Shown: one piece after another, positions 2,670 through 37,139 of the stretch
Layout of the letters: every line of letters starts with the position of its first letter
Numbering within the stretch: position 1 is the stretch's first letter
NCBI RefSeq assembly: GCF_000003605.2
Contig: NW_003145285.1
Coordinates: 218,508-256,428, forward strand
From: Saccoglossus kowalevskii
Lineage: Eukaryota > Hemichordata > Enteropneusta > Harrimaniidae
Length of the DNA stretch: 37,921 nucleotides
Direction of reading: 5' to 3'
Program-made: the position numbers and the translations under genes
Notes under the pieces: generated by a model
Told to the model about the DNA's origin: nothing
Database searches by the model: none
Seen by the model: only the letters and a program-made list of their open reading frames with translations

Positions 2670-2983
2670 TCACTCTTCGTATGGCGGCGGCGGAGTGATA
2701 TCCGACGAGGGTGTGTTTATTCGGCTCTGGTAAGGAGGAGGTAAATCCGTTTCACCGCCGTATTCGGGAGGTGAAACGTTCACCCTATCGTAAGAGGGCG
2801 GCGATGCCATCATATTGACACGTTGAATCGTATGTGTAACATCATCGCCAATACGTAGATGCGACTCCGTTGCATTCCCGTCTGATTGGCTGCCGTACAT
2901 AGGTGGCATTCCTTCGGCTATTCGGGTACTTTCGTTTATCTCCCCTTCATCAAATTCGGTGAAGGAATGTCTTGAGAAATTTG
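2670..2983 (-). CDS. Gene 1 coding exon 6: cytoplasmic tail with five PPxY motifs and stop
   Basis: The exon begins after acceptor TTTTTTTCAG, 100 nt downstream of exon 5, and ends in TGA at 2672-2670. It encodes residues 230-333. The motifs are P-P-M-Y (256), P-P-S-Y-D-R-V (291), P-P-E-Y (301), L-P-P-P-Y (311) and P-P-P-P-Y-E-E at the C terminus. The whole cytoplasmic part contains no lysine. PPxY repeats are the known binding mode of proteins that recruit Nedd4-family ligases, for example Commissureless, Ndfip and PMEPA1. Relationship to any of these is not claimed. Confidence 0.9.
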
Positions 2984-5900
2984 CTGAAAAAAAGGTATAA
3001 AATCGACACATAACAATGAATTTCCGATCTGTAATTAATAGCTATCGAGTTGAAAATTAAAATACACAAATTCCAAGGCATACCTGCATCGACATTGATT
3101 ATGTCATCTTCGGAATTTTCCGTAATGTCTTCGTTGATAACCGAACCGCTGTTCGTGCTTCTTCGAAGAACGACGCAGTAGAAGCAAGCTGCGGCGGGCA
3201 GTATGACAGTCGTGATCAGGACAGCGGGCACAGAAGCCAATATGACGCCCACCGTGTCCGTATCGGGCGGTTCTTCAGAATCTTTCCACCATTCTAGTCG
3301 AATGAGATAAACAAAAATGAATGCACATACACAAGCTGTGTATATAATTTTCGGTAAAGAGCGCCCCCTGCGGCCTTATTTAAAACTGTTTAGTTTTGTT
3401 CCCATTATTCATTGCTCGTTGACAAGGGTTCTAATAAAGTCTTCTTCGCCCTGATTACATTAGGAATTAATGTGATTATGTTATTTGTACTATATAACAA
3501 GGTTCATGTACTCCTGTGACAGCAACATTGGGAATAATATCAATAATGCTGTTAAACACGATAGTAATAATATTGTGAATAATAATTAACAAACGTTGCC
3601 TAATAGAATAATAACATAAAATACTAAATATACTAATCAGTGATCCACGGTGGCCGACCACACTGTACAAATAAGTAAACTATTTAGAAAGAAGCTAAAA
3701 CCGAATTATTCACACGCCTTTACTTAAATTGTCTATTATTGCAATTCTTCTCACGTAAACCCAGTTATGAATGTAGTCAGCGAATAGTCACGATTTGCTA
3801 GAGGAGGTCAGATCAATTGACCCGTTAGAAAACTGAAACAAATTTTGACAACCATCTGCGATATAACTAAAGAACACAGAATAGACATGGGAATTGTGTA
3901 ATTCATTCAAATTATATGTACTACGGAAATTATGAGAAAACGCGCTCTGTAAACAAAATAGCGACAACTTGTATCACTCTCAAAGATAACTCTTACCTTC
4001 TCTTAACTCGCAGTTCTTGCCAAAGTATCCCTCGTTACATTGACATTTGGCCGTCTCCTGGCAACGCCCTCCATTCAGACATTGTTCATCTGTTTCACAG
4101 TATCGCTTGCAACCCTCGTGCTTTACCGTCTTGACTGCTGAGGTTACATAGGCTGGGAATGACAAAATACAGAATTGAAAATGAAGAAAAACCCATTGGA
4201 ATAACGACATTATATGTAATTATCTGACCCCTTTCATGTTGTTCAATGCAATCTCTTTACATGAGTATCTTCAGGCCATTCAACATGTTACAGTAGTGAA
4301 TAGAGGATTTTACGTTTTGTGTTAGCCGAGATTAAAAATAGTGTCAATAAACCAAATGGATTATTTTCCTGTGTTGTGCAACTTGCCAAATTCAAATAAT
4401 ATACGCAAAATTCAGACTTCGAATTGACCAAAAAAAAAAAACGTTTTGCTCGAAGGTAGACAGCAAATACGTGAATATATCGCCATTTGTAGTTGAACAT
4501 TATATATTTCAACACACATGCCTGATGAGTGATTCATGTACCGTCCGTTGCAATACTTAGTCCATTAAAGAAATGGTCATGGGGGACGCAAAGTTCAATT
4601 TTGGTAATTATCACAATCCAATTTCCGCTTAAATTCTCGATGCAATATATGTTCATACATACTATCCATTTTTATTGCTTGGTGTATGAAATGTGCATGG
4701 TAACATGGTTCACTGTTCATTTTTGCTAAGTAGACTGGACAGGTATTCATTTCTACTACCACTTTCCTGGAACTGTAATGTCGACGTTTGAACACAAAGC
4801 CGTCGTTGCTAAGTACCTATGCAAAACCACGTAATCAGTAGCTAAACAGGGGGTGCCTAAGTTGTACTTCCAAATTGTATTATACACAGGAAAAATCTTC
4901 TGATGATTATGACAATCAGAAAAAATATTGCTTTGATAACAGATCCCGAAACATTGAAATTAACCTGTACTAAAAGATCGAGATGCCTAATCAAATAATC
5001 AAACATAATTTTCACAAGGACACTCTAGTTTAAAAGCCTTCTAAATCGATTTCAGGGTCCTGTTGGATTAGATTGCTCGTGAACTGTACTATGTTGGCCA
5101 CAGGGTTCAGTGAGAGGTTTTCTGCAGATTATACTAAGTGGAAATGGAACTTAAATGTTTAATACGATATGTGATTTGTTCTCAAAAAATACAATTGTTT
5201 ATGTGAAAACATATATGACACGGAGATGCAGGGTTGTGTCCTGATGAATGCACTACAATGCGTCATGATAAAGATTACAACGAGTCAAACATTTCACCGA
5301 CAATAAGAATAAATTGCAATGACAGATATTAGATTTAAGTGCGAATTTATTAGTGTGTACGGCTACAAAAAACATGTTGCAGATTTTGTTATCGCAACCA
5401 CGAACATAAAAATGAACGAGACTAGAAGTCCATTAAGAATTATAGTTTAAATTTGGCATCCCTGCATTCTGATAATTCCCCATTATCTTTTATTACTTTT
5501 CGAGAAGAGTAATATTCTTAACATAGGCAAGGATTTTATATATATATAAAATATGCAGCAATCTAATCCGGGTTATCACTGGTCAATTTGATAATTGACT
5601 AATTTGCGGTGGACAAATCAGCATAAATGAATGATAGATGTATGTGGCGGGCGCCTCAGCTCTGCAGGATGTGCCCACTCTTTTTGAAACACCTGGCATC
5701 AACTCATGGTTAGTTTCCAGGAAGTCCAAGTATGTTGTCAGAGTGTTTGCTAATTGACGTAGAGTATTGACATTGTATTTTTTCAGTGAAGATGCTAAGG
5801 TTCAACTCCTCTCTTATAATGTCCCTTTCAATGTATCGACATTATGAGTACCGTTACGATGTACCCGCGTAGGTACGATCACGTACATCGTAAGTCGTTG

Positions 5901-8900
5901 GAACAAGTCGATTGTTTTATGTAACCACGTGTAACAGAGGTGCTTCGACAGAAATTGAGCGCCTCACTCAGTTATATATTTTCCATTCTAGCTTATTTCT
6001 CGCGATAAAAAAATCGATAATCTATTCCCACCTCAGTAACGAAGTGTATTGTATTTTAAGAGTTTTGAAAATGTTGGCTTAGTCGTTATTTATTGCTTTT
6101 AAGATCAACCAAGTAGTACTGGTATTGTGCTCATGATACTGTGTAATATATTTCGGAAGTAGAAATCACAGCATCTTATTCGTTGCATAGTTTCCCACGT
6201 CTCTCAACCAATTACAGTTGTAGAATTGAGTTATTTTCATAACAGTGACGAAACCGTCATTCATTTTCTCATTATGGAAACGAAACAACAATGAACATAT
6301 GACCATTTCTGCTTAGTCATGACAGAATTGTGGCAGAATTAGTCACGGTTCTGTCAGTCGTCGCGGCGCTGTGTTCGATAAAGCTACGTAATCAGAATAC
6401 ATTGTGTGTTTACACAACATTTGAACGTGAGCAGCTCAACGACTCCGGCGCGTGAAGAGCATGCAATGTTGTACTTACATCCTTCGCAGTGTTCGCCGAA
6501 GAAGCTTTCGTGGCAAATACACATACCAATGGTCTCAAAACACACCCCACCATTCTTACAACCGCCACATTCGTTGTTTGGATCCGGAGAACCAATTGGG
6601 TATGAAGGACAGGGATTTCCTGAAAAAATAGCATTGTAATAATTATCTATATTTAAAGTAAAATAAAGTCACATCGGGATTATATAATATTAAAGTCCAG
6701 TATAAAGCGTTTTTTTTGGTGTATTGTGGTCTAACCGTGTATATGGTAATTATCATGGTATTACTAATTGTAAGCATGTACCAAACACCAATTATTTCAC
6801 TCGTTATTATACTCTGTTCATGAGTAAGTCAGCTGGTGTGTATATGAATTGTATATAGCAAGGGGGGAAGTTGTGAAACCACATTCACGAAACATCACAT
6901 TACACAAATTTCAAAGCAAAAAATAATTTACATGAGTATTTACTACTCAGAGGCGGCTACACGTAATTTTGCATGAGGGGGTGAGACCTGCTCACCAACC
7001 TTGCGCCGAAAGCGCGACTTTACAAGGGGGTCCGGGGGCATGCTCCCCCTTAAAAAAATGAAATATAGACGCTCTGAAACGCTTTTCCTGCATTTTGAAG
7101 GTTTCAGCTTGTATTGGAGGGGCGATCGCCCCCCCTCGTGTGCCGCCTTCACTGATGTCCAATTTCACAATCACGACGCGTTAATATTCCGTGAAACTGG
7201 GATGTCGGTAAATTTCAAGTTTACTCGTGAATATAAACTCAACTCAAAATTGATGTTGACGTATATTCATTCAAGCGTTCCAAGTCTAGGATCGTCGAGT
7301 ACATCAATACAACGGCTGCTTATACATATTGGTGTGGTAGGCACGTACGAACAGTTTGTTATTTCTGACCGCGGGGTTATAACTACTGCTGTATGACATT
7401 TACTGTAGCCCCTGCGATCGTCACTCATGTATGGAATAACATTTGCAAAATCTGCAAAATGCGGATTAACCCCCGTTAGACGAATACGATAGCGACAGTA
7501 ATTGTTGGCTGGAAATCTGCTCTGCATTTTAAAGTTAAAACATGTCAATAAATTCAACTTCAAAACCCGTGCACCAAAGTTTCTTATCATGTGTTGTCAG
7601 TTGTCTTTAATTTCTACATCATTCGAAATGGCACTCACAAAAATGTTCATATTCGTAATTTGAAAGTAATTTCGTCGTAATTGCTGTTGTGTACTAGTTT
7701 GCTTTAAGGCCAGCATACTTGTTTCACGGAATAAGACCACTGCTCTATTATAGAAACGTGTCTACAGCATCGTAACATACATAAAACATTTGGACTTAAA
7801 ATATTGTTTAAACGATATGATTTGTAGATACATAACATATGCTAGAATTATTGGTACGCAATTAAGAGTAAATGGCTAAATATATGTTGCAATGAATATT
7901 AGTAATAAAATATTAATATGCATGTATAAACACAATGAAACATTTATGTATTCAACAATTAGTAAATTATTAACATCTTTAGCTGATTTGTGCAATTGTC
8001 AACTGTTGATATGTTTATAAACATACATGAAGACACACTGTAATACACTAGCCAAAATATGTAAGTAATATAATCTGAATCTTAAATTAACCACATCTTG
8101 AATTAGCGAAATGACATTGTAGCTAAATTAACTAAAGTGATATTCTGGCGGAAATGACATATTTTACTATGAAAGTACGATGATCAGATTACAATTTATT
8201 TTCTTGAAACACACTAATATGTCATTCATTTCATTTCCGGCTTGTAATTACATAGACCCCTATTATTGAATGTATTTGGGGGAAATGACATACAATTTTC
8301 AAATGGACTAACACTCATTCTAAGTGTTTAAGTTTCTTGCTAGACGAAATGACAGCATATTTAGTCGGGCAATCACGCAATAGCTTTCATCAAAGACTCA
8401 ATGCAAAAATACTCTCCAAGGTCGACTACTTGCTTAACAAAGATTGAGAACAGATGTCATGAACTGCGGTCTTTGCAAAATTAATTCTAATTACTGTAAC
8501 CATACACCTATGCTGACTGCTCGAACTCACCTGCATGTTCTGATTTCAAGGGAATAATTAGGCACGTCAATCACGTGTTTATATACTCATGTTTCTATGC
8601 AGACAATGTTCACTTTGTTCTTACTGACGAGATGTAACATCTTCAACATGTTTCAGAATTAAATCTCATTACTATATCAGTACTAGCGTGACATTCAGTC
8701 GATGTTAACATATGTATTCATTGTAGTAATGTTTAATGGGTGTACAGCTAAACGACGTGCAAGCATTGGGAAGAATCTCAATGGTTGCGGTGCATACAGC
8801 GTCCAGTCGAATTTAATGTTGATCGTTGACAATTGATTCAGTCGACAATATATACGCAGTAATGAGTTCATTTATGTTCATAACACATAATGGCTTATTA

Positions 8901-11900
8901 TTTTTAATTCAATGTTATGCAGATGTGGAACCCACGGTCTATAACTATTACGTCATAGCTACAACTATGATAAAGATACGTTACATAATACCTAAGATAA
9001 TAATATAAGATTACTACGAAGATACCTCAAAGTATGCACGAAGACGTAGCGCAGCGGAGGTTGATGCGACAGCGTACTGTCTGAGAGCATACTTTGAGGT
9101 ATCTTCGTAATAACCTTATTATTATACATCTTTTCCTACCAAGGATACATCATGGGAATGCCGAAATCTAAAAAGTTTAGAACAGAATCAGCGAACTTCT
9201 TTGTATGGACTCCGGTCAAACCCGTGACAGCCATGTTTGTTTTTATTATTAGAGGACGCTTACGCGCGTAATCATTCCATATTTGGAATTAGCATTTCCT
9301 AATATGGTAGGATGAAAATACCCCGTAAAATACCGCAAAATTACGGCACGCTGTAACCAATGAAGTTACGGTGAGAGATGTATAATAATATAAATTAAGG
9401 TCACTTACTTTTATCGCACAGGTCACCATAGTAACTGGGAATGCAGAGACATTTACGTGCAAACTCTATACAGGTTCCTCCATGCAAACAACCGCCACAT
9501 GGATCCCAGCTTATCAAGTAATCTGAAATACACACATAATGTAGATCAGATATCAACCTGGAACGTTTCCGATTACCTATCCACTTCAACACCTAAGCAA
9601 TGAATTGTACTCATCCAAACATGATAACGTATACTCCATCAGTGACGTATTACGTATGTAATAGATATATTTATTAATGCAATGCATGTACACTGATCAA
9701 TTTGATAACAAGTCCATTGTCTGCTCGGTAGGGAATTAGAGTACTGAATGTGTACGGTACAGTATAATACTAAGCTGATATATCTGACGGTGGACATTGC
9801 AAATGAGACTATGAAGCGATTCGCCTACCATTTGAGCAACACTAAAGTGATCACAGAGATGGTTCAATACAATAAATACCGAGAGCTTAATGTGTACCAT
9901 GCACGCATGTTAAAATGGCATTGTGACAACGATGAGATATTTACAGGGAATAAAAACAAATACATACCCAGTATATTTATGGTTATTATGACAAACCCAA
10001 ATTGAAAAAAAAAAAAAAAACATTTCGACGCATTGACTAAGGGAAAAGATTGACAGAAAAGCGCAGTAATGTATATGTATTTGCACCTGTCGGAAACAGA
10101 AAGCTGAAATGTACTCGATCAATAAACAAGTCAATTCGAATTTTGCTAGGTTAAAAATAACACGCTGGTGATGCATGTATGTAACTATGCAATAGAACAT
10201 ATGATTCAAATAAGACGAGGAAGCCTATATTGTCAGATGCACGTTATTTAATGCACGCCGGGTCGCATACAAATATACCATAATCTCAAAGAAAGGCTTA
10301 GGAATTAGTAAAGTCACTATTACACGTCTTGTTCATCTTCCGACGAGTTATCCAATGACCGGACAGATGTTATGAGCATGCGCATAATCTCAGTTATAAA
10401 GACTGTATAAACCATGATCTGTATAACAACTTACAAGCAGTGACCACACTATTTCACGAAATAACTGTAACGTATGAGTCGATTTGTTGAATGAGAATAA
10501 AAATATACATATATTCATTCGAAACGTTAAATAATGTAATCTCCATCATTATAAATACAGAAGCGGTGATACTATACAATACTATGTAAATGCCATTTCC
10601 ACTGTGATTAATTTCAATCGCATTTAGAGCATTTCTCTGATTAAAATCGGTGCCAGACTGGCAGGCTCGTGAACTCGTACCAATGTCTCACACCGACGTA
10701 CTTCAAAATAGGAAGATAAATTATAATCATGGATTATATGTATGAACTAACTGAATATCATAACCTGGAGGATAATGTAAGACATTTGCTGATGGTATTA
10801 TTATTCGAGAGTAGCGCGATTATACCCTAGTCACGTAGGTGAATCTATAGTGAGACCCAGATAACTCATTAAATAATTGGCCGCTTTAACAATCGTACGA
10901 AGACGAGCAATCGCCGATACACATGATACAGCTTCACAAATTGGAATGACAACCCAGACGTCACGATTCTGAAAATTGAGTTGTCAACGATTCGGAACAA
11001 GATTTACACCTGCGTGATTTAGTTTTGCCCATGGGAATAATATTTTCTGCATTTCGAACAGTTAAAACGATTGAGCTTACCATCAAGCCAGTTTGCACCT
11101 GTCCCCGAATGTAAAGACTGTGTCAAATAAAAATAAGCTAAGCTGCAAGAACATATTTCATAGAGTCACATCGCCATAATAACGATTTCAAATACTGTTC
11201 TATTTAATATTCTTGTTGTCGTAGTCATAGAGCCTACATGTGACCTTTCATGGCAGTAAAAACATTCACTACTAAATATGTGTATTATTACCAAGGGACC
11301 GGCATTGCTGTAGCGTTGAGTAATAAAAAATAATTATTGAGTACAAATACGATATCAAAGTTGTAATAAATGGCTTGATTGATTTGAAACCAATTAGCGA
11401 TGGACTTTAAGCACACTAGCTCCGATAATAGTCTTATCATATAAATATTTATAAATACGACTAGTCATCAGTTCCGTGAATGATAATGACTGGACAAATT
11501 ATTATATACCGAATCAGCACTGCCTTGTCAGAAAACTAATACATAGAAAAGTCATATATATGCCCACATTGGTGGACAGATGTGAATTCAAAAAAATTGT
11601 GTTGATATTGAATTCAAATTAGTAAAAAACTATGGACTATCATTTCCATTCAATTATCAGTTGTTATATACCCATTTGTAATTTCTCAAATGCGCTGACT
11701 AATAACGCTGCGCAATAATGACTGTCGGGATCAAACATTACAATTGCCATTTAGTGTCATATCGGTAATTCTAAAACTTTCGTCGAGCTAAATAATTATT
11801 GATTAAGTGTCATGAGGTCATTATCCGTGAACTTTCATCCACCAGATCAAAGATAGGCAGGATGAGCCAGAAGCACCAATCACTATCAAATGGCAGGACA

Positions 11901-14420
11901 TTGTAATGACATAAACTCACCCCAATAATAATGAGCATTGATTGACATTAAGGATTGATTAGCAAGATTGTTGAACTTATAATGTCAACTGTCGACTATC
12001 AGGACTGTTGAGTGTCAACACTGAACATCGACTAGCAAGGCTGTTGAGTGTTGACTAGCAAGACTGTCGAGTGTTGACTAGCAATGCCAGGGGCAGATCT
12101 AGGATTCTGGAATGGGGGGGGGGGGGCGATAAGTTGGCCGAAGGCCAAGTTAGCGAGCGCTGATGGCGCGAAGCCCTGTTGGTTGTTAAAAATAGGGGGG
12201 CCGCGGCCCCCTCGGCTCCCTCTAAATCCGCCAATGTNNNNNNNNNNNNNNNNNNNNNNNNNNNNNNNNNNNNNNNNNNNNNNNNNNCGTGAAGTAAATT
12301 AACTCTCACAGACGGGGTGCAGACTGGTGGTAAAGTTTGTACAGTTATATTCGTGAAGTAGATTAACTCTCACAGACGGGGTGCATGCTGGTGGTAAGGT
12401 TTGGATAGTTGTATTCGTGAAGTAGATTACCTCTCACAGACGGGGTGCAGGCTGGTGGTAAGGTTTGGACAGTTATATTCGTGAAGTAGATTAACTCTCG
12501 CAGACGGGGTGCAGGCTGTTAGTAAGGTTTGGACAGAGTTATATTCGTGAAGTAGACTAACTCTCACAGACGGGGTGCAGGCTGGTGGTAAGGTTTGGAC
12601 AGTTTTTTTCGTGAAGTAGACTAACTCTCACAGACGGGGTGCAGGCTGGTGGTAAGGTTTGGACACAGTTATATTCGTGAAGTAGATTAACTCTCACAGA
12701 TGGGGTGCATGCGGTGGTAAGGTTTGGACAGTTGTATTCGTGAAGTAGAATACCTCTCACAGACGGGGTGCAGGCTGGTGGTAAGTTTTGGACAGTAATA
12801 TTCGTGAAGTAGACTGACTTTCACAGACGTCTATGAATAACTCACTTGATTATTCTTCCATTTTTACAAACGATAGTACTTACTAATTATTAATCAAGAT
12901 GTTACATATATTCATATATATTTCTCATAATTGTATACAACTTCTAATTGTTAAATGCAGTCATGCAAGTTGATTATTTGCACTTTCACCTGCGGGGCAT
13001 TAGAGCTCCCTAGAAAAGATCATATAGTTCGCCCACTACATAAATACAAATGTCGATTATGTGAGCAATGGCCAGAATATCAATGAATACATTGTTTTCA
13101 AAATACACGATAACTTGTTCATTTTATGAATTTAAAATGCAATGACATAGGTAGGTATATTTATGGTAATGTACTACCTGAATGTTGTATGAACTGATAG
13201 TAGTACGTTTAAGGTACCACATTTTTACTATATTTAGTTGGTTTGTGTAACGCTCATTGCAAGTAATGGCATCGGAACTAGGGTTATAATGTAGATAGAG
13301 TTTTGGCAAATGTGTCTCAGTGGATTCCACATACTATCAATTTGCAGGCCACCAATCAGTAAAGCTAACAAAGCAACTTTGTTACAGCCATAATTCCTTT
13401 CATGGGTAGGACTGCTGGTTATGATATCTACTACATTGCTGGCTGAGTTTAAAACCACGTTGGTTCTTGGTGTAACAGACGTATTGAGTTAAATCCTATT
13501 GTTAATGCTTTGCTTTACGTATTGAATATAGTGTGTGAACTAATTGAAATTAACGAGTTAGTTTCAACCAAACAAGTTATTATCATATGTGTAGTCATTT
13601 AAAACATTTGATATGTGTGAAAGTATTTATTATTGCTTTAATTGTGAATGGTCATGTTTGGAAATAAAGGTGGAGAGGGGTCTTTGACCAGCAACTATGT
13701 CTGTATAGCAGATTAACACTAAATGAATTCCAAATAGAAATGTGGAGTAATCGTTCCTGGTAGCTGGTTCATCTCATTTGTATCATGGGTATACGTCTGC
13801 AATCGGGGAGCTTACGATGTTTGCTGTTATAATGACAAGTTGCAGTGATGAAAATTAGTGATGATCTGGTCAATGAACAAATTAGATTTACATTGATATA
13901 CATGGAGACCTTCGTTCAATAATGTCAAGTATGCAGTGATAGTACTCGGGATGACTGGAATAATAATGACAATGTTTATGATATACCCGGCGTTTGCCAG
14001 TTCAATAATGACAAAGGTAAACACTCACCATAGAATCTTTGAGATTTTGTATCTGAGAAAAATATTATCTTTTTAAAAATCTGCCCATAATAGTTTGCTA
14101 GTGTAAAGTTGAATTATACTCTTGACAAATGAGCATTTGTTTTACTATGAATCACTCAAAATAGATTTTGGGGAAAATATTCTAAAATTATCTAGTATTT
14201 CACTATAAAAATGACACGTTGATATGTTGTTGGATAATGTCAAACACTGAACTAGTATATATTAACTACTTAATTCACAAACCATCGATTTCTCATACTA
14301 TCGATTTTCCCCGCACAATAATCAATAAACTGAATAAATAAGAATTGCTTTACCTTGAGTGTACACAAATGAGATGCCGGTGGCTATAAACAGCAGCCAA
14401 ATACATAAACTGGCAAACAT
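2670..14420 (-). CDS. Gene 1: three-EGF single-pass membrane protein with lysine-free PPxY tail (six coding exons)
   Basis: Joined exons on the minus strand are 14420-14354, 9522-9409, 6619-6479, 4152-3997, 3293-3084 and 2983-2670. They total 1002 nt and encode 333 residues in one open frame, with every intron in phase 1. Predicted layout: signal peptide 1-21; EGF modules at about 31-58, 78-105 and 126-155; acidic stalk; transmembrane helix about 174-202; cytoplasmic tail 203-333 with PPxY at 256, 291, 301, 311 and 328. PPxY motifs bind WW domains, chiefly of Nedd4-type E3 ligases, so I infer a surface receptor or trafficking adaptor. The EGF part would lie outside the cell and the tail in the cytosol. 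No named family is recognised. An additional exon could be missed in the 4.8-kb first intron, which contains the N gap. Gene 2 is a paralogue on the same strand. Confidence 0.85.
3084..3293 (-). CDS. Gene 1 coding exon 5: stalk, transmembrane helix, start of tail
   Basis: The exon is 210 nt with acceptor CGACTAG and donor GCAG|GTATGCC, phase 1 on both sides, encoding residues 160-229. It opens with E-W-W-K and an acidic, proline-containing stalk. The hydrophobic span of about 174-202 ends in C-F-Y-C-V-V-L-R-R, a normal stop-transfer with cytosolic arginines and possible acylated cysteines. The segment after it is acidic. The first coding bases after the acceptor, AA-TGG, are the same as in the corresponding exon of gene 2. 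Confidence 0.88.
3997..4152 (-). CDS. Gene 1 coding exon 4: EGF module 3
   Basis: The exon is 156 nt with acceptor CATTCCCAG and donor GAAG|GTAAGA, phase 1 on both sides, encoding residues 109-159. A linker rich in Val, Lys and Thr leads to cysteines at 126, 132, 138, 144, 146 and 155, spaced C-x5-C-x5-C-x5-C-x-C-x8-C. An extra cysteine at 122 precedes them, as in module 2. The ending C-N-E-G-Y-F-G-K-N-C is classic EGF. It is followed directly by the transmembrane exon, so this is the membrane-proximal module. Confidence 0.9.
4153..6478 (-). other. Gene 1 intron 3, no internal gene supported
   Basis: This is 2.3 kb of AT-rich sequence between EGF exons 2 and 3. Two items stand out. A GC-richer patch at about 5639-5757 is open in both directions. 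A perfect 11-bp inverted repeat lies at 5854-5864 and 5883-5893, with an 18-nt spacer. Nothing else is recognisable. Confidence 0.5.
5854..5893. repeat. Perfect 11-bp inverted repeat with 18-nt spacer
   Basis: TTACGATGTAC at 5854-5864 is matched by its exact reverse complement GTACATCGTAA at 5883-5893. It lies in gene 1 intron 3. A function in RNA folding or as a transposon relic is possible but not shown. Confidence 0.6.
6479..6619 (-). CDS. Gene 1 coding exon 3: EGF module 2
   Basis: The exon is 141 nt between acceptor TTTTTTCAG and donor GGAT|GTAAGTA, phase 1 on both sides, encoding residues 62-107. The frame is fixed by the splice phase. The cysteines at 78, 81, 87, 94, 96 and 105 have the same spacing as module 1, and an extra cysteine lies at 64 after the linker. 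The NGG turn and the GxxC ending (G102, C105) are typical of EGF. Valine replaces Ser/Thr before C87, so the O-fucose site of module 1 is absent here. Confidence 0.87.
6945..7147. mobile_element. GC-rich dispersed-repeat fragment
   Basis: A sharp GC-rich island sits in gene 1 intron 2. It includes GCGCCGAAAGCGCG, the segment GGGGGTCCGGGGGCATGCTC and, near 7120, GGGGCGATCGCCCC. This style of G-run plus short palindromes is characteristic of non-autonomous dispersed repeats in many marine invertebrate genomes. A similar patch is at 12088-12237. No transposase is present, and the ends cannot be fixed without other copies. Confidence 0.45.
7148..8992. other. Gene 1 intron 2, mostly featureless
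   Basis: No gene is supported. Open frames around 7267-7590 have no recognisable domain. The only structure I see is a cluster of four GAAATGACA motifs between 8108 and 8354, listed separately. Confidence 0.5.
8108..8354 (+). repeat. Four relic copies of the 26-bp satellite core
   Basis: GAAATGACAT occurs at 8108, 8151 and 8282, and GAAATGACA at 8346. This is the invariant core of the large satellite at 16590-23437. The best copy continues TTTTACTATGAAAG, resembling the satellite continuation AGCTTACTCAATGATAG. Intervals of 43, 131 and 64 bp are not regular, so this is a decayed or scattered set rather than an intact array. Confidence 0.45.
8996..9127. mobile_element. Foldback element with 27-bp arms and tRNA-like loop
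   Basis: Arms 9011-9037 and 9087-9113 are inverted copies, 26 of 27 bases matching, sharing the core ACGAAGATACCTCAAAG. Weaker AT-rich complementarity extends to about 8996 and 9127. The 49-nt loop carries TAGCGCAGCGG at 9047-9057, close to the A-box of RNA polymerase III tRNA promoters, and a GACAG/CTGTC stem at 9068-9081. No B-box is seen. It is most likely a MITE or foldback element that captured a tRNA-derived segment, lying in gene 1 intron 2. Confidence 0.55.
9409..9522 (-). CDS. Gene 1 coding exon 2: EGF module 1
   Basis: The exon is 114 nt, with acceptor TATTTCAG and donor AAAA|GTAAGT, phase 1 on both sides. It encodes residues 23-60. Six cysteines are spaced C-x2-C-x5-C-x6-C-x-C-x8-C (C31, C34, C40, C47, C49, C58), the pattern of an EGF-like domain. 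The C2-C3 segment, C-LHGG-T-C, fits the protein O-fucosyltransferase consensus C2-x4-(S/T)-C3 known from Notch. There is no clear calcium-binding signature before the first cysteine. Confidence 0.88.
10005..10020 (+). repeat. A16 homopolymer
   Basis: Sixteen A residues directly follow the TGA stop of an 85-codon plus-strand open frame (9748-10005). This could be the tail of a retroposed sequence, but the frame has no recognisable domain and no target-site duplication was found. Confidence 0.7.
10021..11930. other. Gene 1 intron 1, left part, featureless
   Basis: AT-rich sequence without a supported gene, RNA or repeat. Cysteine-rich EGF-like coding was looked for on the minus strand and not found. 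Confidence 0.4.
11935..12080. repeat. Short degenerate minisatellite, about 23 bp
   Basis: Copies of TGTTGAGTGTTGACTAGCAA recur with changes (for example CATCGACTAGCAAGGC and TGTCGAGTGTTGACTAGCAA). The last two copies are 23-24 bp apart and earlier ones are diverged. Confidence 0.6.
12088..12237. mobile_element. GC-rich dispersed-repeat fragment abutting the assembly gap
   Basis: After AT-rich DNA the sequence changes to a G-run of 12, then GGCCGAAGGCCAAGTTAGCG, GCGCTGATGGCGCG and GGGGGGCCGCGGCCCCCTCG. The composition and short palindromes match the patch at 6945-7147. The element is cut on the right by the run of N. Confidence 0.45.
12238..12287. other. Assembly gap, 50 N
   Basis: Exactly fifty N. 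The round size suggests a placeholder of unknown true length. It separates the GC-rich element from the 64-bp array, a place where assemblies commonly break. Confidence 0.98.
12288..12830. repeat. 64-bp minisatellite, about 8.5 copies
   Basis: Each unit begins CGTGAAGTAGATTAACTCTC and continues through CAGACGGGGTGCAGGCTGG and TGGTAAGGTTTGGACAG. Unit starts are at 12288, 12352, 12416, 12480, 12546, 12610, 12676, 12739 and 12803, giving periods of 63-66 bp. The left end is at the assembly gap, so the true array may be longer. It lies in gene 1 intron 1. Confidence 0.95.
12831..14353. other. Gene 1 intron 1, right part
   Basis: AT-rich DNA between the 64-bp array and the signal-peptide exon. 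Minus-strand open frames at 13124-13330 and 13234-13458 show no domain I recognise. No gene is supported. Confidence 0.4.
14354..14420 (-). CDS. Gene 1 coding exon 1: start codon and signal peptide
   Basis: Reading the minus strand, ATG at 14420 opens MFASLCIWLLFIATGISFVY, a typical short secretory signal, followed by T-Q and a phase-1 donor CAAG|GTAAAG. The first base left over joins AT of the next exon to make Asp. This start is chosen because it begins a hydrophobic leader in frame with the EGF exons. A possible acceptor, GTTTGCAG, lies 8 nt upstream of the ATG, so an untranslated first exon may exist further upstream. Confidence 0.75.
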
Positions 14421-14428
14421 GGAGTCGC

Positions 14429-16116: not shown

Positions 16117-16589
16117 TGATAGACATTACATAACTTTGTCACCGATCGACATTACACGATTCTCATTGACAGAAATAAAACAACTTTGTGATATAAATGG
16201 CATAACTTTGCCATTGGTAGAATTGAAACAGCTTTCTCTCTGATAGAAGTGACGTGGCTCTCATTGATTTAACTGGCATGACTTCCTCACTGATCGAAAT
16301 TACGTAGCAATCTCATTGATGAAAATAATACAGCTTTCTCTCTGACAGGTTTCGCATTAATAGATATAACAAATATTTAACTGATCGAAATTACTCACTG
16401 ACTGTGCTTTCGCTTTGATTGTGATGTCTCAGTTTTCTGAATTATATACACCACTCAGCATTCTCACTGACAGTAAATACAGCCTTAATGATATTAAAAA
16501 CGGCATAGTTGTCTCATTAATACGAATGACAGCTTACGTTTTCATTGAAATGATAGCTTTCACACTGATAAACATGGCATAGCTTTCTC
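16117..16589. repeat. Left decayed shoulder of the 26-bp satellite
   Basis: Diverged units can be followed by eye, such as TTGATAGACATTACATAACT, GATCGAAATTACGTAGC and CTCTGATAGAAGTGACG. They are irregularly spaced. The link between units usually reads TTTCTCA rather than the TTACTCA of the core array. Confidence 0.8.
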
Positions 16590-23437: not shown

Positions 23438-23830
23438 ATAATAGTAGTGGCGTTGATATCTCACTGACAGAAGACATAGCTGTCTCATTACTGTTGACAG
23501 AAATAACAGCTATTTATTTATAGATACAGCTTTATCACTGATAAACTTCACCTAGTTTTTTCAATCATCGAAATTACAAATTACATCATTGATAGAAATG
23601 ACATCAGTTTTTATGCATGGAAATGGCACAGCTTTCTCGGTGATGAACTTGAACTATCTTTCTAATTAACAGATAAGACATAGCTTGCTCATTGGTAGAC
23701 ATGACTTGGGTGTCTCTCTGATGGGAAAGACATAATCTTTTCACTGATAAATTACACAACTTTCTCAATGCTGAAAATGACATTTTCTCATTTAAAGAAG
23801 GGATGCATATTTCTCACTGAAACAAAATGA
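23438..23830. repeat. Right decayed shoulder of the 26-bp satellite
   Basis: Diverged units continue beyond the homogeneous array, for example TCATTGATAGAAATGACATC, TTCTCAATGCTGAAAATGAC and CTCATTGGTAGACATGAC. As on the left, the linker is mostly TTTCTCA-like and spacing is irregular. Confidence 0.8.
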
Positions 23831-25440
23831 AAACGTTGAACACTGAGTCGTGTTCCAAAAAATAATCTGCGCCCTCCGGTTAAATGGCATGAATATATAT
23901 ACAAAGATTCCGATCACGTTTCATTGAATCGAAATGTACAAATTGTGTTTGAATGCTGGTCCATTTACCAATACATCGTTATCGGATGTTGATTTAGTAA
24001 CTTTTTTTTATCTATAGCAAAATAATCAGCATTCGCTACAAGATTACATCTTGATCTAAAACGTAGGTGGAATTAAAAGTACAGTAAAAAACGATGTATC
24101 ATCGATGTCTGCTGAACGTACAAGTAAAATAGCCAATCTAGCTAGGATTCAGGTGTGATTATCGCGACTAAGAGGTTGGAGTGCGCGTAGTGCTTTATCA
24201 TAATTATTATAATGACCGGATAACCCTATATGTATAGGTAGCAAATATGCCAGACTGATGACCAGCTTTTCACGAGCATTACAGCATATCTACTTACAGT
24301 GTTCCTTGAAGGATGTACTCTTGGATGAGTAAAGTACGAGGCAAATGACCAATCGACTATAAAACGGCTATCAGTCTAGGTCTGCCTCTCGCCAAAACTG
24401 CCGTACAAACACGCGGTTTATTTTAGGGGGCTTGCAGGATTCGGAGGACGATATTTATGTGGAGGAAGGGTAAAAATTATTATACTAAAATTGCCAAGAA
24501 AAAGAAGAAAGAAGATGAATAGAAATGTGTTCTTTCGTATATGTGCGTACAATATTCCAATAACTGGCAAATGCATCGACCCCTGATTTCAATTGGGAGA
24601 CCCCTTACGCAGGAAGGGGAAGGTGTAATGCTTTTATTTTTCTTGAGAATGATTCACCAGCTTGTTAATAAATGTAAACAGAAAAAAAACACGTTTCCTG
24701 TAATAATTAAATACCAATGACGTCCATTGAAAGCCTTAGTTAAATACTGTCATTATGTACACCGCACTTTCAACCGGCCGCAGTAGATGTTAGATGCGTA
24801 CTCCATGAAATCTGGGTTGCAACAGCACTTATATGTCATGATTTGTATTAGCCAAGGAAGAATCCCACTCCAATGTCGAACCTTGCACCTTAGCCAAACT
24901 AAATTAGCATAAACATAAAATTAGCAAAAAATTACTCGAATTACACACTAAACTAACGTAAACATCTATATTATTCACAAAATTTAACGCTTGGATTGTA
25001 TTCCATTTACGCAGACTAAGCATTGTTAAGAACACTAAAAACCGTCAGATTATGTAGTGCACCATGAGGCCGCCCAATAAATGCGAAAGCTAGGAGAGTC
25101 CCATAAATAGTACGTAAATATGAAATCTGAAAGAAAAGCATACATGCTAAGAGCATAGCAAATATGAAAACCACCACCACCATCACACAGCCAGACACCA
25201 CACGACAACCACTTGCATAAAAACTGGTAGAACACGCTCTTTTATGTTGTGAAACATATATGCATTTCGATATATCAATAAACAGTGTGACGAGACTCGA
25301 TCTCTTCCGACATTTATATTTATCTCGATTAATTTCGAATTAATTGGCTTGTATGCAACAATTTGATACTATCTGAAACGAATTCACAAAGATTACCCAA
25401 TCTCACATCGGTGAACACAAATACCGGCGTTGTACCGTGC
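23831..25440. other. Intergenic, no gene supported
   Basis: Mixed AT-rich sequence. A minus-strand frame at 25016-25201 is hydrophobic, but without splice context or homology I do not call it. Confidence 0.4.
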
Positions 25441-26216
25441 AGTACAGCCAATCATAGTCGAGGCCATGTAGAACAGCCAATTATAGTCGAGGCCGTGCAG
25501 AACAGCTAATCATAGCCGAGGCCGTGCAGAACAGCCAATTATAGCCGAGGCCATGCAGAATAGCCAATCTCAGCTGAGGTCGTGCATAACAGCCAATCAT
25601 AGCAGAGACCATGCAGAACTAACAATCATAGCAGAGGCCGCACAGAACAGCCAATCACAGCTAAGGCCGTGCAGAACAGCCAATCATAGCCGAGGCCGTG
25701 CAGAACAGCCAATCACAGCTGAGGCCGTGCAGAACAGCCAATCATAGCCGAGGCCGTTTAGAACAGCCAATCTCACCAGAGGCCGTGTAGAACAGCCAAT
25801 CATAGTCGAGGACGAGCAGAACAGCCAATCATAGTCGAGGACGAGCAGAACAGCCAATCATAGCAGAGGCCATGCAGAACTACCAATCACAGCTGAGGCC
25901 GTGCAGAATAGGCAATCACAGCTGAGGCCGTGCTGAACAGCCAATCATAGCAGATGCCGTGAAAACAGCCAATCATAGCAGAAGCCATGCAGAACTACCA
26001 ATCACAGCTGAGGCCGTGCAGAATAGCCAATCACAGCTGAGGCCGTGCTGAACAGCCAATCATAGCAGATGCCATGAAAACAGCCAATCATAGCAGATGC
26101 CGCGAAAAAAGCCAATCATAGCAGATGCCGTGCAGAACTACCAATCATAGCAGAAGCCATGCAGAACAGCTAATCATAGCCGAGGCCGTGCAGAACAGCC
26201 AATTATAGCAGTGGCG
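25441..26216. repeat. 29-bp minisatellite with a CCAAT box in most units, about 27 copies
   Basis: The unit is GAGGCCGTGCAGAACAGCC followed by AATCATAGCC. The interval between CAATCATAG at 25681 and CAATCACAG at 25710 is 29 bp. Most units contain AGCCAATCA, an exact match to the NF-Y (CBF) consensus RRCCAATSR. Some copies have mutated it to CTAATC or GCAATC. Small deletions occur around 25960-26110. The open frames inside are repeat by-products, with a 29-residue super-period because 29 is not divisible by three. Confidence 0.93.
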
Positions 26217-28296: not shown

Positions 28297-28452
28297 CGGG
28301 GTGGGCAATTATTTTTTTTCGCCGGTAGTCATGCGTATTTGTTTCAAAGCAGTCCCGTCTGGTGAATAATATAGCTGATTGCAGTGATACTGTGGGGACT
28401 TTGCGCTGTACTCTCGGGTACGCTTGAAGGAAAGAGCCAAATTGCCCTACTG
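28297..28452. mobile_element. Possible hAT-like miniature element relic
   Basis: CGGGGTGGGCAATT at 28297-28310 faces AATTGCCCTACTG at 28440-28452, an imperfect inverted pair. The left end resembles the CAGGGGTGGGCAA termini common in hAT transposons. No matching 8-bp target duplication is visible, so support is weak. Confidence 0.25.
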
Positions 28453-33310: not shown

Positions 33311-33546
33311 ATGTTTGTCGGAAATGGAAGCGATTGAGACATATGTTAACACGTCAGTTCTGTATAAGCAGATTGTATATTTACATGATAACATTTCACC
33401 GTACACAGTGAGTCTGAGGTATGGTCGTTGAACATATACTAAACCCTTACTTTCCCATCACAGAAAGAACAATGATATATCTTGTAACAAAATATATAAT
33501 ATTTGTAGCAGGATTTTGTTTAAATAACTAACTAGTCCAATGAATG

Positions 33547-33920
33547 TTAATACTTCATATCATCCTCACGTACGTCGGCGAGTTTGACGGTTTGGTACTG
33601 TTTTGTTACGGTGTCGTACGAGGGCGGCAGTTCAGGAACGCGACGTGTTGGGGTACTCTGTTGCGTTCTGCCCGATCTCGCCGATATACTGATTGAAGGT
33701 ATGGGTGGAGCAGGCACAGAGGGCGCTATATCATGCTGGCTCATTTCGAGCTGATCGTAGCGATAGTTTCCACTTCCTCTAGCTCGACCACCATCGTCAG
33801 CATCAGAGGCGGTATTCATTGGTTCCAGCGTTCCATTCACAATAATTTTGGGTCGGGTTTCTTCTTTCTGGCGGACACTCTCAAAATGGGTATACCAATG
33901 TGGACGATAAGTTTGAAAAC
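33547..33920 (-). CDS. Gene 2 cytoplasmic tail exon and stop
   Basis: Acceptor TTTCTTTCCCAG precedes the exon and TAA at 33549-33547 ends it. It encodes 123 complete residues: a basic start (R-Q-K-E-E-T-R-P-K), a Gly/Asp-rich linker, a proline stretch P-S-V-P-A-P-P-I-P that could bind SH3-like domains, then E-L-P-P-S-Y-D-T-V and an acidic end, D-D-M-K-Y. It has one PPxY where gene 1 has five. Confidence 0.87.
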
Positions 33921-36900
33921 CTGGGAAAGAAACATTTAGAAAAGAAAATTTAAAGAAGTGGCATAAATACACTGCATGACAAAGGCACGAAAACAGAAGA
34001 TGGAGAGATCGTCAATACGTCATAAATTAGAGGCAGAGCCTTACGTAGTGGAGTCTCGAGAAAAAAACTTTATGAATTCAGAGAATTGTAATTACTGCGT
34101 AACATTTTTTGAATTAGTTCCATTAACCTAATGAAATAAAATATAAAATTTGAAAAATTTGTAAACAGCAAAAATGAAAATCTGTTTTCGTGAAACAGCC
34201 TAGTAATATGCTGGAGTGAATTATTCCAACATACTAGTATACATATTAACTGAATTCAAGGTTACTACTCGGATGGCATGAATTCGCTCTACTCTCGTGA
34301 TTACCAAGGCAACCACTTTAATAAAATTACTTGTTCTACTGACATACCTTGCTTAGGCTGTAGTGATATGTTGGCTGCCATCATTTGGTGGCGCTGTCTG
34401 GTCTTGGCATTTCGTCGCGATACACAGACACAACAGGCGCAGAGACCGGTTATAGCAATAACTATTATCACAAAGGCTATGACCAAAATTTCCGTCACAG
34501 ATTTCTTGTTTTCTTTATTTTCTTCTTCTTCAAGACTGTACCATTCTTTGTTTAAAACAACAGAGGAGACCATAGTTAGAGGCTGCACAGCTTCTAGTTT
34601 GCGCCTTATGATTTTTTTCGCGTTTAACTACTACAATTCAAAGGCTGTGTTACGACTGTTACGTTCATACACTCTGTTTCAATCTAAACCTACAATCAGT
34701 ACGCAACCCCGTATTACGATATTGTAATATTCTCTAGAAACTAGCGTGCATTGAAATTGAATGTACATACTCAGTCGTCGGTAGGCAATTTTAATTAATC
34801 GTTGTTGTTACCATAATACGGGGCATCATCATTGTTATTTGAGAGACACAATTTGAATCACCTTCAGTTAAAGATATATTTCCGTTCAGAAAAATTTAAT
34901 TATTTTCCGTGAACAGCTGGCGTAGTTATCTGAATTAGATGTCGTATAAAATACATTTTGAGTGGTAAACCCTATTTCCAACCGACACACGCATGTACAA
35001 TTCATACTAAAGAAGATACGTACAGGAAGCTTTCATCACACTCTCATTTGAACACTGTAGATTGTTGTTCCTATCAGTTAATTTAAGAGATGGACAACAA
35101 GAGACGGAAACTCATCAGATAGCAGGAAATTAATTCGACCGACACGTGACGTACACTTGTAGACTCTGTAACCTACACCGTTGCCATCGCCTCAACGTGT
35201 TATGACTGATTGAAACGTTAGTTGCATCGATTAAATAGATCGCCTTGCAATTTATTTGATTACTAGCTTCCCTGGTTAATACTTCCTCGGATGTGTTAGC
35301 CAGGTAGATCAATCAATGTCAAGAACGCAATTATTATTTACATTTGATCTCTATGACAACAGTTCTCCTCTTGTCGAACGGATGTGTGTTCTTATTTCAG
35401 CATCAACGTACGCGTATTTTGCGTTTTTGAATTAAGATCTTTTTAGAGCACCTTTTTATGATGCAATGGGTAACCGAAATGACATCATATCCACCGACAA
35501 CGCCTGTGCTGTCACGGAATTGGTCACGTGACATCATGAATAATTGATATTTGTTTTACTTCAGTAGTCGTGATTTTATCTTATCTAAGTAAATATTTGA
35601 AGAACATATAACAACGTATGTTCTGAATGGTCCGATAAATGTCCCCGATAACCATCCATCGACATTTAGTTACGGCAGGGAGTCTCATTTACAAGCACCA
35701 ATAAGAAACATAATCATTTCAAATTGCAAGTACACTTTAAAACAATATACATTGGCATTAAGCAGCAACAACGCATTATATACGGTCCACTAAATTTATA
35801 CATCATTTGGGACAAATTCAACTATTTCATTGGTCTAGCTAAGGGCGAATGAATCAACACGACTACAGGGAGGAAGTCTGAAATATGGAAGACCGCCACA
35901 TTCTGAATGAATGAGATTATAAAATCACAGAAGCGTCGTAAATACCGCTGTCTCTTTCATTATTTGTAGAGCATAATGTCGATGTAGACGATGATATAAA
36001 TGCAGGTATGCATTGAGAAAGTATTCACGCTGATCACCATCGTATATCTTATCAGTTTGATAAAACAGAGATAATAACTTAGCGCTGGATTCGTCATCGC
36101 CACTCAATGTGTTTTGTCTGTCTAGAAATTTCCAATCCATTTCTGAATTGATGTATAGATGAATATTACACTGTTATTAACTATACCAAACACTGACAGC
36201 GTATTCTGAATTAATTCTCATTGTGCACCGCAAATAATGATAACAAATATATCCTGCTAGCATTTATCATACACAATAATACGATGAAGTTGTGCTTTAC
36301 ACGGAAAACAACATCCCAGTAGTCGAAGTCTTGAAAATGAAAATGATATTGTTTCCCAGTCGTGTAACGAGGGAACAACTTGAATCTTGGACAATAATAT
36401 ACAAGTAATATACCGATTGTTCACGAGATACCTACATTAAGTTTATTACATTTTGTAGTATCTATTATTGATTATAACTCTTTACATGTAGTAGATGTTG
36501 ATCGTACATTCATATGAAACAAAATGTATTTACACCGTGTCTTGAAATTGATGTAGCATGTATTCACATCCCCAACCATATTTCCCATCTCATACCATTT
36601 TATTGTTGGATATCAGGTAAACTGCCACAAATGACACTCACATCATAGCAGAACACATTCAAACGCTAACAGCTGAATGTGACGTCCATCCTTAGTGACT
36701 TTGCATAATATGTATTAATTTCAACTTGTTTAAGTTCTCGCCCTAGGGCAAACTGGCAGTGACGTTTTATTTCTAGTAACAGTTAAATAGGTATTTCCGG
36801 ATAATGTAGCATTATTATTATTTGTTATTAAGTATACAGAATTTAATTCCACGGAGACTGAATTCGTAACCAAATAGAGGCAAATTTATGCATTTGCAGC

Positions 36901-37139
36901 GATGTAAATGGTGAGATACAACACAAAAGTTGTTATGCAGAGGTCGACGGAACACTCACCCGCTATGTTCTCACATTGTTCTCCCTCGTAACGGAAAGGG
37001 CAGTGGCACTCGCCGTTGGCGAGGCACGTACCGCCATTTTGACAACCATTCACGGTATATTCACAATGAAAATCACCATCTGCAATATATGCTGACTCGT
37101 CTATCCCGTATTTTTTATCGAGCAATTCCTCGTAGCTAT
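33547..37139 (-). CDS. Gene 2 (partial): EGF single-pass membrane protein with PPSY tail, paralogue of gene 1
   Basis: Exons on the minus strand are 37139-36960, 34545-34348 and 33920-33547, with phase-1 junctions throughout, giving the last 250 residues. The first residue is split with an exon outside the window, so the signal peptide and any further EGF modules lie to the right. Layout of the visible part: EGF at about 26-56, acidic stalk 61-79, transmembrane helix about 80-102 ending in a cysteine cluster, cytoplasmic tail 103-250 with PPSY at 225. The transmembrane exon starts like that of gene 1 (AG|AA-TGG, Glu-Trp), and both tails share P-P-S-Y-D-x-V. The tail has seven lysines, unlike gene 1. 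The likely role is a surface receptor or adaptor binding WW-domain proteins. I do not recognise a named gene. Confidence 0.82.
34348..34545 (-). CDS. Gene 2 transmembrane exon
   Basis: The exon is 198 nt, encoding E-W-Y-S-L, a glutamate and lysine-rich stalk, the helix I-L-V-I-A-F-V-I-I-V-I-A-I-T-G-L and then C-A-C-C-V-C-V-S-R-R. The cysteine cluster at the cytosolic face is typical of palmitoylated juxtamembrane segments. The donor AAG|GTATGT is strong. The acceptor TTTTAAACAAAG has a poor pyrimidine tract, but it alone keeps the phase and aligns with gene 1 exon 5. Confidence 0.85.
34546..36959. other. Gene 2 intron, largely featureless
   Basis: This is 2.4 kb between the EGF and transmembrane exons. 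No further EGF exon was found on the minus strand. A single GAAATGACAT satellite core is at 35476-35485, and the uncertain open exon at 35925-36142 is listed separately. Confidence 0.5.
35925..36142 (-). CDS. Uncertain candidate exon inside gene 2 intron
   Basis: On the minus strand, ATCAATTCAG|AA-ATG opens a 71-codon frame in the same phase as the gene 2 exons. It begins M-D-W-K-F-L-D and is rich in Asp, Tyr, Leu and His. Possible phase-1 donors inside (G|GTGATC, C|GTGAAT) are weak. It has no cysteines and no counterpart in gene 1. It may be an alternative stalk exon or chance. Confidence 0.15.
36960..37139 (-). CDS. Gene 2 EGF exon
   Basis: The exon is 180 nt with acceptor TTGTATTTCAG and donor GCGG|GTGAGTG, phase 1 on both sides. 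After an acidic linker of about 24 residues (S-Y-E-E-L-L-D-K-K) it shows cysteines spaced C-x6-C-x5-C-x5-C-x-C-x8-C, with the NGGT turn and EGEQC ending of an EGF module. The C2-C3 segment C-QNGG-T-C fits the O-fucose consensus, as in gene 1 module 1. Confidence 0.9.

Follow-up and report, generated by a model that had tools for sequence, protein, structure and literature searches.

Two minus-strand EGF-transmembrane-PPxY genes of Saccoglossus kowalevskii: probable members of a diverged family and candidate ubiquitin-ligase adaptors

What do the two minus-strand genes within a 37,921-nt stretch of Saccoglossus kowalevskii DNA (contig NW_003145285.1, positions 218,508 to 256,428; hereafter the window) encode, and are they copies of one another? 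An earlier note had read them as a head-to-tail pair of EGF-transmembrane-PPxY membrane proteins, expanded by tandem duplication and coupled to ubiquitin-dependent trafficking. As a whole, this interpretation is partly supported. Both gene models are predicted from the sequence alone, and all features below lie on the minus strand in window coordinates.

Gene 1 is a complete six-exon model. Its exons join in exact frame, as had been claimed, to 1002 nt (333 codons and the stop), and the predicted protein begins with a signal peptide, followed by three EGF modules and a single transmembrane helix; its tail carries five PPxY motifs. The five introns are all GT-AG and in phase 1. Exon 1 (14354..14420) contains the start codon and the signal peptide MFASLCIWLLFIATGISFVYTQ (mean hydropathy 2.21 over 19 residues), and it ends with a GT donor in phase 1. 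The following three exons, each flanked by AG and GT (phase 1-1), carry one EGF module each: module 1 in exon 2 (9409..9522) has the cysteine spacing 2,5,6,1,8 with a two-residue first loop, CGGC; module 2 in exon 3 (6479..6619) also has a CGGC first loop and contains the best EGF_2 stretch (residues 75-105); and module 3 in exon 4 (3997..4152) adjoins the membrane, with its best PF00008 stretch at residues 126-154. EGF_2 was found in three stretches of the protein by the Pfam search (E 4.6e-11). Exon 5 (3084..3293, phase 1-1) starts at AG/AATGG, where the slash marks the exon boundary, and encodes a Glu-Trp-Trp stalk and the transmembrane helix TVGVILASVPAVLITTVILPAAACFYCVV (3169..3255; hydropathy maximum 2.43 over 19 residues). 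The cytosolic tail and the TGA stop codon are encoded by exon 6 (2670..2983; AG acceptor, phase 1). The tail contains PPMY (2895..2906), PPSY (2790..2801, in PPSYDRV), PPEY (2760..2771), and two PPPY motifs (2730..2741 and 2679..2690), the last of which is two residues before the C-terminus. Five PPxY motifs were reached by none of 100,000 shuffles of this tail.

Gene 2 is represented only by its 3' part, consisting of an EGF module, a transmembrane helix, and a tail with one PPxY motif; its 5' side enters N sequence (window coordinates 37922-59116). The exons are in frame, and both introns are GT-AG and in phase 1. The EGF exon (36960..37139; AG/GT, phase 1), upstream of which the 5' part of the gene lies outside the window, has all six cysteines with the spacing 6,5,5,1,8, and it scores under the Pfam cut-off (EGF_2 19.0 bits against 22.1). 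The next exon (34348..34545, phase 1-1) also starts at AG/AATGG and encodes a Glu-Trp-Tyr stalk and the helix ILVIAFVIIVIAITGLCACCVCV (34421..34489; hydropathy maximum 3.12 over 19 residues). The tail exon (33547..33920; AG acceptor, TAA stop) contains a single PPSY (33616..33627, in PPSYDTV). At least one PPxY appeared in 4,408 of 100,000 shuffles of this tail, and one PPxY is held by 11.7% of human proteins according to the accessible part of PMC8509885; therefore, the single motif is weak when taken alone, and it could be a chance occurrence. A match of gene 2 to WW-binding protein 1 (Pfam WBP-1, E 0.15) was under the cut-off and was rejected. Thus, the proposed order of EGF modules, Glu-Trp stalk, one transmembrane helix, and PPxY tail was found in both genes, as were the phase-1 junctions in all gene 1 introns and both gene 2 introns and the common boundary at both transmembrane exons. 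The pair itself holds for a complete gene 1 with five motifs, whereas gene 2 is a 3' part with one.

The tails of genes 1 and 2 were no more similar than expected by chance, since 134 of 500 shuffles in one run and 281 of 1000 in another aligned equally well, and with whole PY words the count was 1565 of 2000. The second of these values comes from a comparison of all 28 pairs of eight tails, and the third from 17 comparisons on 15 of those pairs. On the tail comparison a recent tandem duplication was rejected, and the expansion of genes 1 and 2 proposed in the earlier note is not upheld. When the two proteins were compared by blastp alone, the gene 2 query aligned from the EGF module to the helix (2.4e-8, 27% identity), and the reversed search gave 6.4e-5 over the EGF module and EWW. 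The boundary Glu is the fifth residue past the last EGF cysteine in both. The two genes would be no more than ancient paralogs, connected chiefly by way of relatives on a different contig.

These relatives were searched for in 572 Mb of the genome. The ectodomain of gene 1 gave 33 matches, including its own four exons, and the best two of the other 29 were EGF exons on contig C2918 (1.8e-4 and 2.7e-3). They belong to two genes, A and B, which have the EGF-xW-TM-PPxY plan, phase-1 introns, and a CGxC distal EGF module as in gene 1. Although reached by EGF matches alone, both have an xW transmembrane exon. Gene A has two PPxY motifs in its tail and gene B has one; because both genes were found by EGF similarity, these motifs are independent evidence. 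In the reverse search with the ectodomain and helix of gene A, 13 matches were obtained, three of them gene A itself, and the first EGF module of gene 1 was second among the other ten (2.1e-3). Genes 1, A, B, and D have five distal EGF modules between them, all with the two-residue first loop, which occurs in none of 30 background modules from eight other loci of this genome (top PF00008 loci, leaning toward Notch-like modules and taken by a fixed pattern).

Gene 2 is linked to the same contig by the start of its tail, GFQTYRPHWY, which matches GFDYRPSWY of gene A (11 and 4 of 2000 shuffles equally good). The tail link between genes 1 and A is weaker with whole PY words (29 and 94 of 2000). 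With the PY words whole, 750, 618, and 138 of 2000 shuffles were equally good for genes 1 and B, genes 1 and C, and genes 2 and B, respectively, and transmembrane-tail queries from genes 1, 2, A, and C did not list one another across the two contigs. Phase-1 EGF exons, a phase 1-1 transmembrane exon starting with xW, and a single PPxY tail exon are common to genes 1, 2, A, and B. Gene C, which came up through its similarity to gene A in the transmembrane and tail parts and was read for these two parts only, fits this plan with W as the second full codon, and gene D, read without a tail, lacks the W in its transmembrane exon and falls outside it. The extended motif PPxYxx(V/A) is present in genes 1, 2, A, B, and C. 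A stretch near gene B reading RPAFYYPLF, with no acceptor seen nearby, was taken as chance.

The two genes could instead encode unrelated EGF receptors in which phase-1 EGF exons and PPxY motifs arose convergently. Many animal genes have phase-1 EGF exons, and the dissimilar tails agree with this explanation. Moreover, the EGF module of gene 2 is absent both from the 33 matches of the gene 1 ectodomain and from the 13 matches of gene A, which strengthens convergence and weakens the family and adaptor readings. However, AG/AATGG and the position of the boundary Glu are shared by both genes, xW recurs in genes A, B, and C, and the best-match link of gene 1 and the tail link of gene 2 both point to C2918. 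We therefore consider convergence unlikely; genes 1 and 2 are probably members of an ancient family whose genes lie in clusters.

The earlier note had suggested a look for further copies in the flanking sequence. Three more PPxY-tailed genes (3, 4, and 5) were located 41-88 kb beyond the window, one of them with LDLa and EGF modules. They were found through a PPxY scan, so their PPxY motifs are there by selection. Of the nine open frames that the scan gave, two correspond to genes 1 and 2, four come from genes 3, 4, and 5 (gene 3 accounts for two), and those at C3610:248209, 285838, and 325681 were dropped as PPxY frames without context. The reading of contig C3610 started after base 118507 and stopped 258 bases before its end, and what was read has long N stretches. 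The stalk W is absent from genes 3, 4, and 5, and the transmembrane exon of gene 5 starts in phase 0, which sets them apart from the family plan. Gene 3 reads LDLa-EGF-TM-PPPY-PPSY. Its tail comparisons with whole PY words were not significant (1336, 202, and 155 of 2000 shuffles equally good against genes 1, A, and 5, respectively), and gene 3 was accordingly rejected as a homolog and is regarded as a neighbor of the same kind whose relationship is not established. Another stretch of C3610 reads EQWW and was dropped, with no transmembrane helix seen in its frame.

The earlier note could name no family for these proteins, and we agree: the transmembrane and tail parts of genes 1, 2, 3, A, B, and C have no Pfam family at the cut-off, and no PDB sequence matched this part. 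Other Pfam rows on these parts were under the cut-off (for example, EphA2_TM with E 0.02 in gene A and COX14 with 0.029 in gene C). Searches for tRNAs and Rfam families in the window gave nothing. No description of an EGF-TM-PPxY family was recognized in titles and abstract starts, in a search that reached only a minority of subscription-journal papers and does not prove absence.

An EGF module adjoining the membrane is a feature that gene 1 shares with membrane-anchored EGF receptor ligands, and the proteins might be precursors of the EGF/TGF-alpha type, from which this module would be shed to activate an EGF receptor. In a PDB search, residues 127-163 of gene 1 aligned with mature EGF through the Trp-Trp end (1egf, E 0.0085), with WIF1 (2.1e-6) and Jagged-1 as better matches, and gene B reads CQYRDGWW from its sixth EGF cysteine onward. 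However, EGF receptor ligands have the cysteine spacing 7,4-5,10-13,1,8 and an essential Arg just before the sixth cysteine. The 11 modules considered here have spacings of 2-6,5,5-9,1,8-9; none shows the ligand pattern and none has the Arg. On spacing and Arg position an EGF receptor ligand identity was rejected, and we regard the precursor explanation as very improbable.

We give about even chances to the reading that genes 1 and 2 are members of one diverged family of type I EGF-xW-TM-PPxY proteins with a single membrane pass, present in at least two genome clusters, and likely act as Nedd4-type substrate adaptors. The EGF part would recognize either a ligand or a partner receptor, and a HECT ubiquitin ligase would be docked by the PPxY motifs through its WW domains. 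The adaptor and its cargo might then be ubiquitinated, internalized, and sent to endosomes and lysosomes. Gene 1, with five motifs, would bind multi-WW ligases most tightly, and binding by gene 2, with one, would be weaker or more selective. The sequence itself shows the architecture, the exon phases, the motif counts, and the links to other genes; that both proteins reach the surface, bind WW domains, become ubiquitinated, and have a cargo are predictions. The ubiquitin coupling proposed earlier is retained in part, in that we infer a WW-ligase role from the WW domains in the genome and the known PY-tailed membrane adaptors.

By analogy, the best reading is that genes 1 and 2 would work like Commissureless, PRRG4, LDLRAD3, or ENTREP, without implying membership. 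Commissureless is described, in the accessible parts of PMC12101832 and PMC5578492, as a short protein known only from insects that crosses the membrane once; with its L/PPxY motifs it recruits Nedd4, to which it brings Robo1 for degradation. Its LPSYDEAL (PMC5578492, in part) resembles PPSYDRV of gene 1 and PPSYDTV of gene 2 when the motif text is compared by eye; the accessible text mentions neither a signal sequence nor an EGF module, unlike gene 1, and the likeness is one of description only. PRRG1-4 combine a small extracellular module with a single transmembrane helix and a tail that carries PPxY and LPxY, and PRRG4 binds Nedd4 (PMC5578492, accessible part). Genes 1 and 2 likewise have a single transmembrane helix followed by PPxY, and genes 4 and 5 pair PPxY with LPxY. 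Unlike PRRG, with its Gla ectodomain, no Gla family was matched at E up to 1 in the complete gene 1 or in the partly read ectodomains of genes 2, 3, A, and B; for genes 4, 5, and C no ectodomain was found.

LDLRAD3 reportedly regulates Itch and Nedd4, as the title of Noyes 2016 has it. It is a membrane protein (LRAD3) with LDLa modules and two PPxY motifs (PMC11150648, accessible part). It has three LDLa modules, whereas a single LDLa and a single EGF were read in gene 3, and the Pfam search found no LDLa in gene 1 or in the read part of gene 2. The two PPxY motifs of its tail compare with two in gene 3, five in gene 1, and one in gene 2. ENTREP/FAM189A2 sits in the plasma membrane as a type I single-pass protein, and its PPxY motifs bind ITCH, activate it, and draw CXCR4 to it (PMC8811627, accessible part); an EGF ectodomain, as in genes 1 and 2, is unmentioned there, and the likeness is again by description.

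A broader proposal, which we put forward only tentatively, is that the two clusters encode modular surface proteins, with various ectodomains (EGF types, LDLa plus EGF) placed on a single transmembrane-tail cassette that evolves fast and retains little beyond L/PPxYxx(V/A). They would be lineage-expanded ubiquitin-ligase adaptors, each specific for its ligand, and would match Commissureless and PRRG on the scale of a whole family. Known Nedd4-type membrane adaptors look unrelated between animals (Commissureless in insects; PRRG, LDLRAD3, and ENTREP in vertebrates). If a family of this kind is clustered and its EGF parts can be recognized, it would provide natural variants for comparing partner and number of docking motifs, and would show whether adaptors have arisen repeatedly in animals from PY tails joined to small extracellular modules.

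PPxY motifs can also bind WW proteins other than ligases, and the C-terminal PPxY of beta-dystroglycan binds such domains. The tails might therefore provide an adhesive or cytoskeletal link through dystrophin-, YAP/Yorkie-, or MAGI-like proteins. Gene 1 ends in PPPPYEE, two residues past its last motif, which would suit such a link. However, several spaced motifs and the form PPxYxx(V/A) are closer to Commissureless and PRRG4 (PMC5578492, accessible part) than to a single terminal motif, and we judge this link improbable relative to ligase docking. The genome contains 15 WW matches spread over 11 contigs, and WW proteins besides one ligase are therefore likely; three of the matches lie within 1.8 kb on contig C3354.

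The window covers bases 218508-256428 of contig C3610. Its minus strand encodes gene 1, whose six exons join into a frame of 1002 nt through introns that are all GT-AG and phase 1. The product begins with a signal peptide, and each of the next three exons supplies an EGF module with six cysteines. A Glu-Trp-Trp stalk and a single transmembrane helix follow, and the terminal exon is 314 nt long. The cytosolic tail contains PPMY, PPSY, PPEY, and two PPPY words, and none of 100,000 shuffles with composition kept attained this total of five PPxY motifs. Upstream of it on this strand, gene 2 was read as three exons (EGF, transmembrane, and tail), the tail containing a single PPSY; the missing 5' part presumably lies in an N-reading stretch outside the window. 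The transmembrane exon starts at AG|AA-TGG in both genes, with the boundary Glu at residue 5 past the last EGF cysteine. The EGF-transmembrane-PPxY architecture described in the earlier note is real, and somewhat richer than stated; the frame continuity, phase-1 junctions, and exon boundary were also borne out.

The proposed origin by tandem duplication fails. In direct comparison, the tails of genes 1 and 2 are no more alike than shuffles. Two-sequence blastp aligned the part from EGF to helix at 2.4e-8 with 27% identity (gene 2 as the query) and at 6.4e-5 when reversed. A recent tandem duplication is unsupported, and the two genes are joined mainly via a third party, the genes on contig C2918 of the same genome.

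A search of the assembly (572 Mb, 4830 contigs) with the gene 1 ectodomain gave 33 matches, four of them gene 1's own exons and none of them the EGF of gene 2; the best two of the other 29 (1.8e-4 and 2.7e-3) are both on C2918. Genes A and B were located there via EGF similarity alone. As read, without 5' ends, gene A (plus strand) has EGF exons at 636796-636915 and 637503-637646, a transmembrane exon at 646774-646998, and a tail exon at 647732-648264; gene B (minus strand) has the corresponding exons at 667973-667860, 667754-667641, 666438-666190, and 654030-653477. The junctions read are phase 1, and the transmembrane exon has Trp second in both (SW, GWW). The tail of A contains PPKY and PPGYEEA, and that of B contains PPSYEEV, its first motif having decayed to PRKY. 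Since nothing but EGF similarity had led to these two genes, their PPxY motifs and Trp are predictions that came true. The mature EGF C-terminal end reads CQYRDLKWW, and gene B from its last EGF cysteine, CQYRDGWW, resembles it; the module fails the EGFR-ligand tests. Gene C (transmembrane exon 601049-600780, tail 600413-599917, with PPSYRYV and PPEYDAA) was located via transmembrane and tail similarity to A. Gene D was read as two EGF exons and a transmembrane exon between 591.2 and 588.6 kb, and this transmembrane exon lacks the Trp. A one-frame match to gene A from EGF 2 to the helix, with one TAG (G000:C3134:444632-444892, plus strand, E 0.023), could reflect one more relative, a degenerated copy, or coincidence.

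In shuffles (n=2000) that kept each (P/L)PxYxx word whole, the A-B, A-C, and B-C tail similarities were never matched, and these three genes plainly belong to one family. The gene 2 tail joins A (GFQTYRPHWYTHF vs GFDYRPSWYLPF; 11/2000 and 4/2000 shuffles); against B the count was 138/2000. The gene 1 tail against A gave 0/1000 plain shuffles, and 29/2000 and 94/2000 with the PY words kept, which suggests a weaker link than that of gene 2; against B and C it gave nothing (750/2000 and 618/2000, PY words kept). The ectodomain link of gene 1 is better than its tail link. In the reverse genome search with the ectodomain and helix of A, three of 13 matches were A itself, and gene 1 EGF 1 ranked second of the other ten (2.1e-3), after gene D (1.6e-3); gene 2 and the EGF exons of B were absent from the 13. 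When only the transmembrane and tail part served as the query, genome searches gave no crossing between C2918 and C3610, the contig of the window. The first loop has two residues (CGxC) in all five distal EGF modules of genes 1, A, B, and D, and four in 30/30 modules from eight other loci of this genome, a background that leans to Notch-like modules. On these comparisons, genes 1, 2, A, B, and C are likely to share an ancestor, gene 2 being the least firm member.

Three further PPxY-tailed genes lie on the plus strand of C3610 outside the window: gene 3 (297150-300205; LDLa, EGF, helix, and tail with PPPY and PPSY), gene 4 (327755-329086; helix and tail), and gene 5 (339680-344849; helix and tail). 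Their PPxY motifs are no independent evidence, because the genes were found by a PPxY scan. With PY words kept, the gene 3 tail had no significant similarity to the other tails. The tails of genes 4 and 5 (PPSY plus LPDY or LPNY) are homologous (0/2000 word-keeping shuffles), and that of gene 4 matches the tail of C (0/2000) and, less so, of A (17/2000). Ectodomains of genes 4 and 5 were not found in the sequence read, and N stretches lie upstream. The gene 5 transmembrane exon starts in phase 0, not 1. The gene 3 stalk (G000:C3610:299151-299315) has a PPTY just outside the helix, on the extracellular side and beyond reach of a WW domain.

At the Pfam cut-off, gene 1 contains EGF families only (EGF_2, EGF). 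The transmembrane and tail part had no Pfam model at cut-off and no PDB sequence covering it; its one PDB row, a ribosomal protein (E 0.25), was taken as noise. In the PDB sequence search, gene 1 aligns with mature EGF through its Trp-Trp, and WIF1 and Jagged-1 score better. Identity as EGF-receptor ligands was rejected, since 0/11 EGF modules have the required spacing and Arg. Membership of PRRG was rejected for want of Gla in the ectodomains read, and that of LDLRAD3 for want of LDLa in gene 1 and in gene 2 as read. Relatives may be annotated elsewhere as uncharacterised EGF proteins.

PPxY is a ligand of WW domains, notably in Nedd4-type ligases. The genome has 15 WW domain matches on 11 contigs (three within 1.8 kb on C3354); therefore, possible partners for the tails exist. 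The extended form PPxYxx(V/A) is common to genes 1, 2, A, B, and C (e.g. PPSYDRV, PPSYDTV, PPSYEEV) and is close to the Commissureless (Comm) and PRRG4 motifs given in PMC5578492. Membrane proteins with tails of this sort are known to pass receptors to such ligases. In a PY-dependent manner, Comm assembles with Nedd4 and Robo1 into a complex that directs Robo1 to degradation (PMC12101832). PRRG4, also a Nedd4 binder, reportedly acts as a functional homologue of Comm (PMC5578492), and for CXCR4 it is ENTREP that recruits ITCH and activates it (PMC8811627). LDLRAD3 combines LDLa modules with two PPxY motifs (PMC11150648), and the title of its primary paper names Itch and Nedd4. The tails described here would dock the WW domains of Nedd4-type ligases, and receptors would be handed over as by these proteins. 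The reading with the best support places the proteins in the Comm/PRRG4/ENTREP/LDLRAD3 functional class, as adaptors or receptors headed by EGF modules, in which we infer all binding steps; coupling to WW ligases seems reasonable. The proteins would be a variant of an already known kind.

Several repeats accompany the genes. A 26-bp tandem repeat (16553-23438; about 264 copies, 6.9 kb, 91% matches) lies between the first exon of gene 1 and gene 2, and a 29-bp unit, also readable as 58 bp, recurs about 44 times at 1-1299, 1.4 kb downstream of the gene 1 stop. Another array, of 27 copies of a 29-bp unit, occupies a GC-richer stretch at 25435-26215, and 64-bp units at 12288-12829 border a 50-base run of N. 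The gene 1 intron between exons 2 and 3 contains an imperfect, MITE-like inverted repeat (9005-9119) with 41-nt arms, 88% complementary, and a 33-nt loop.
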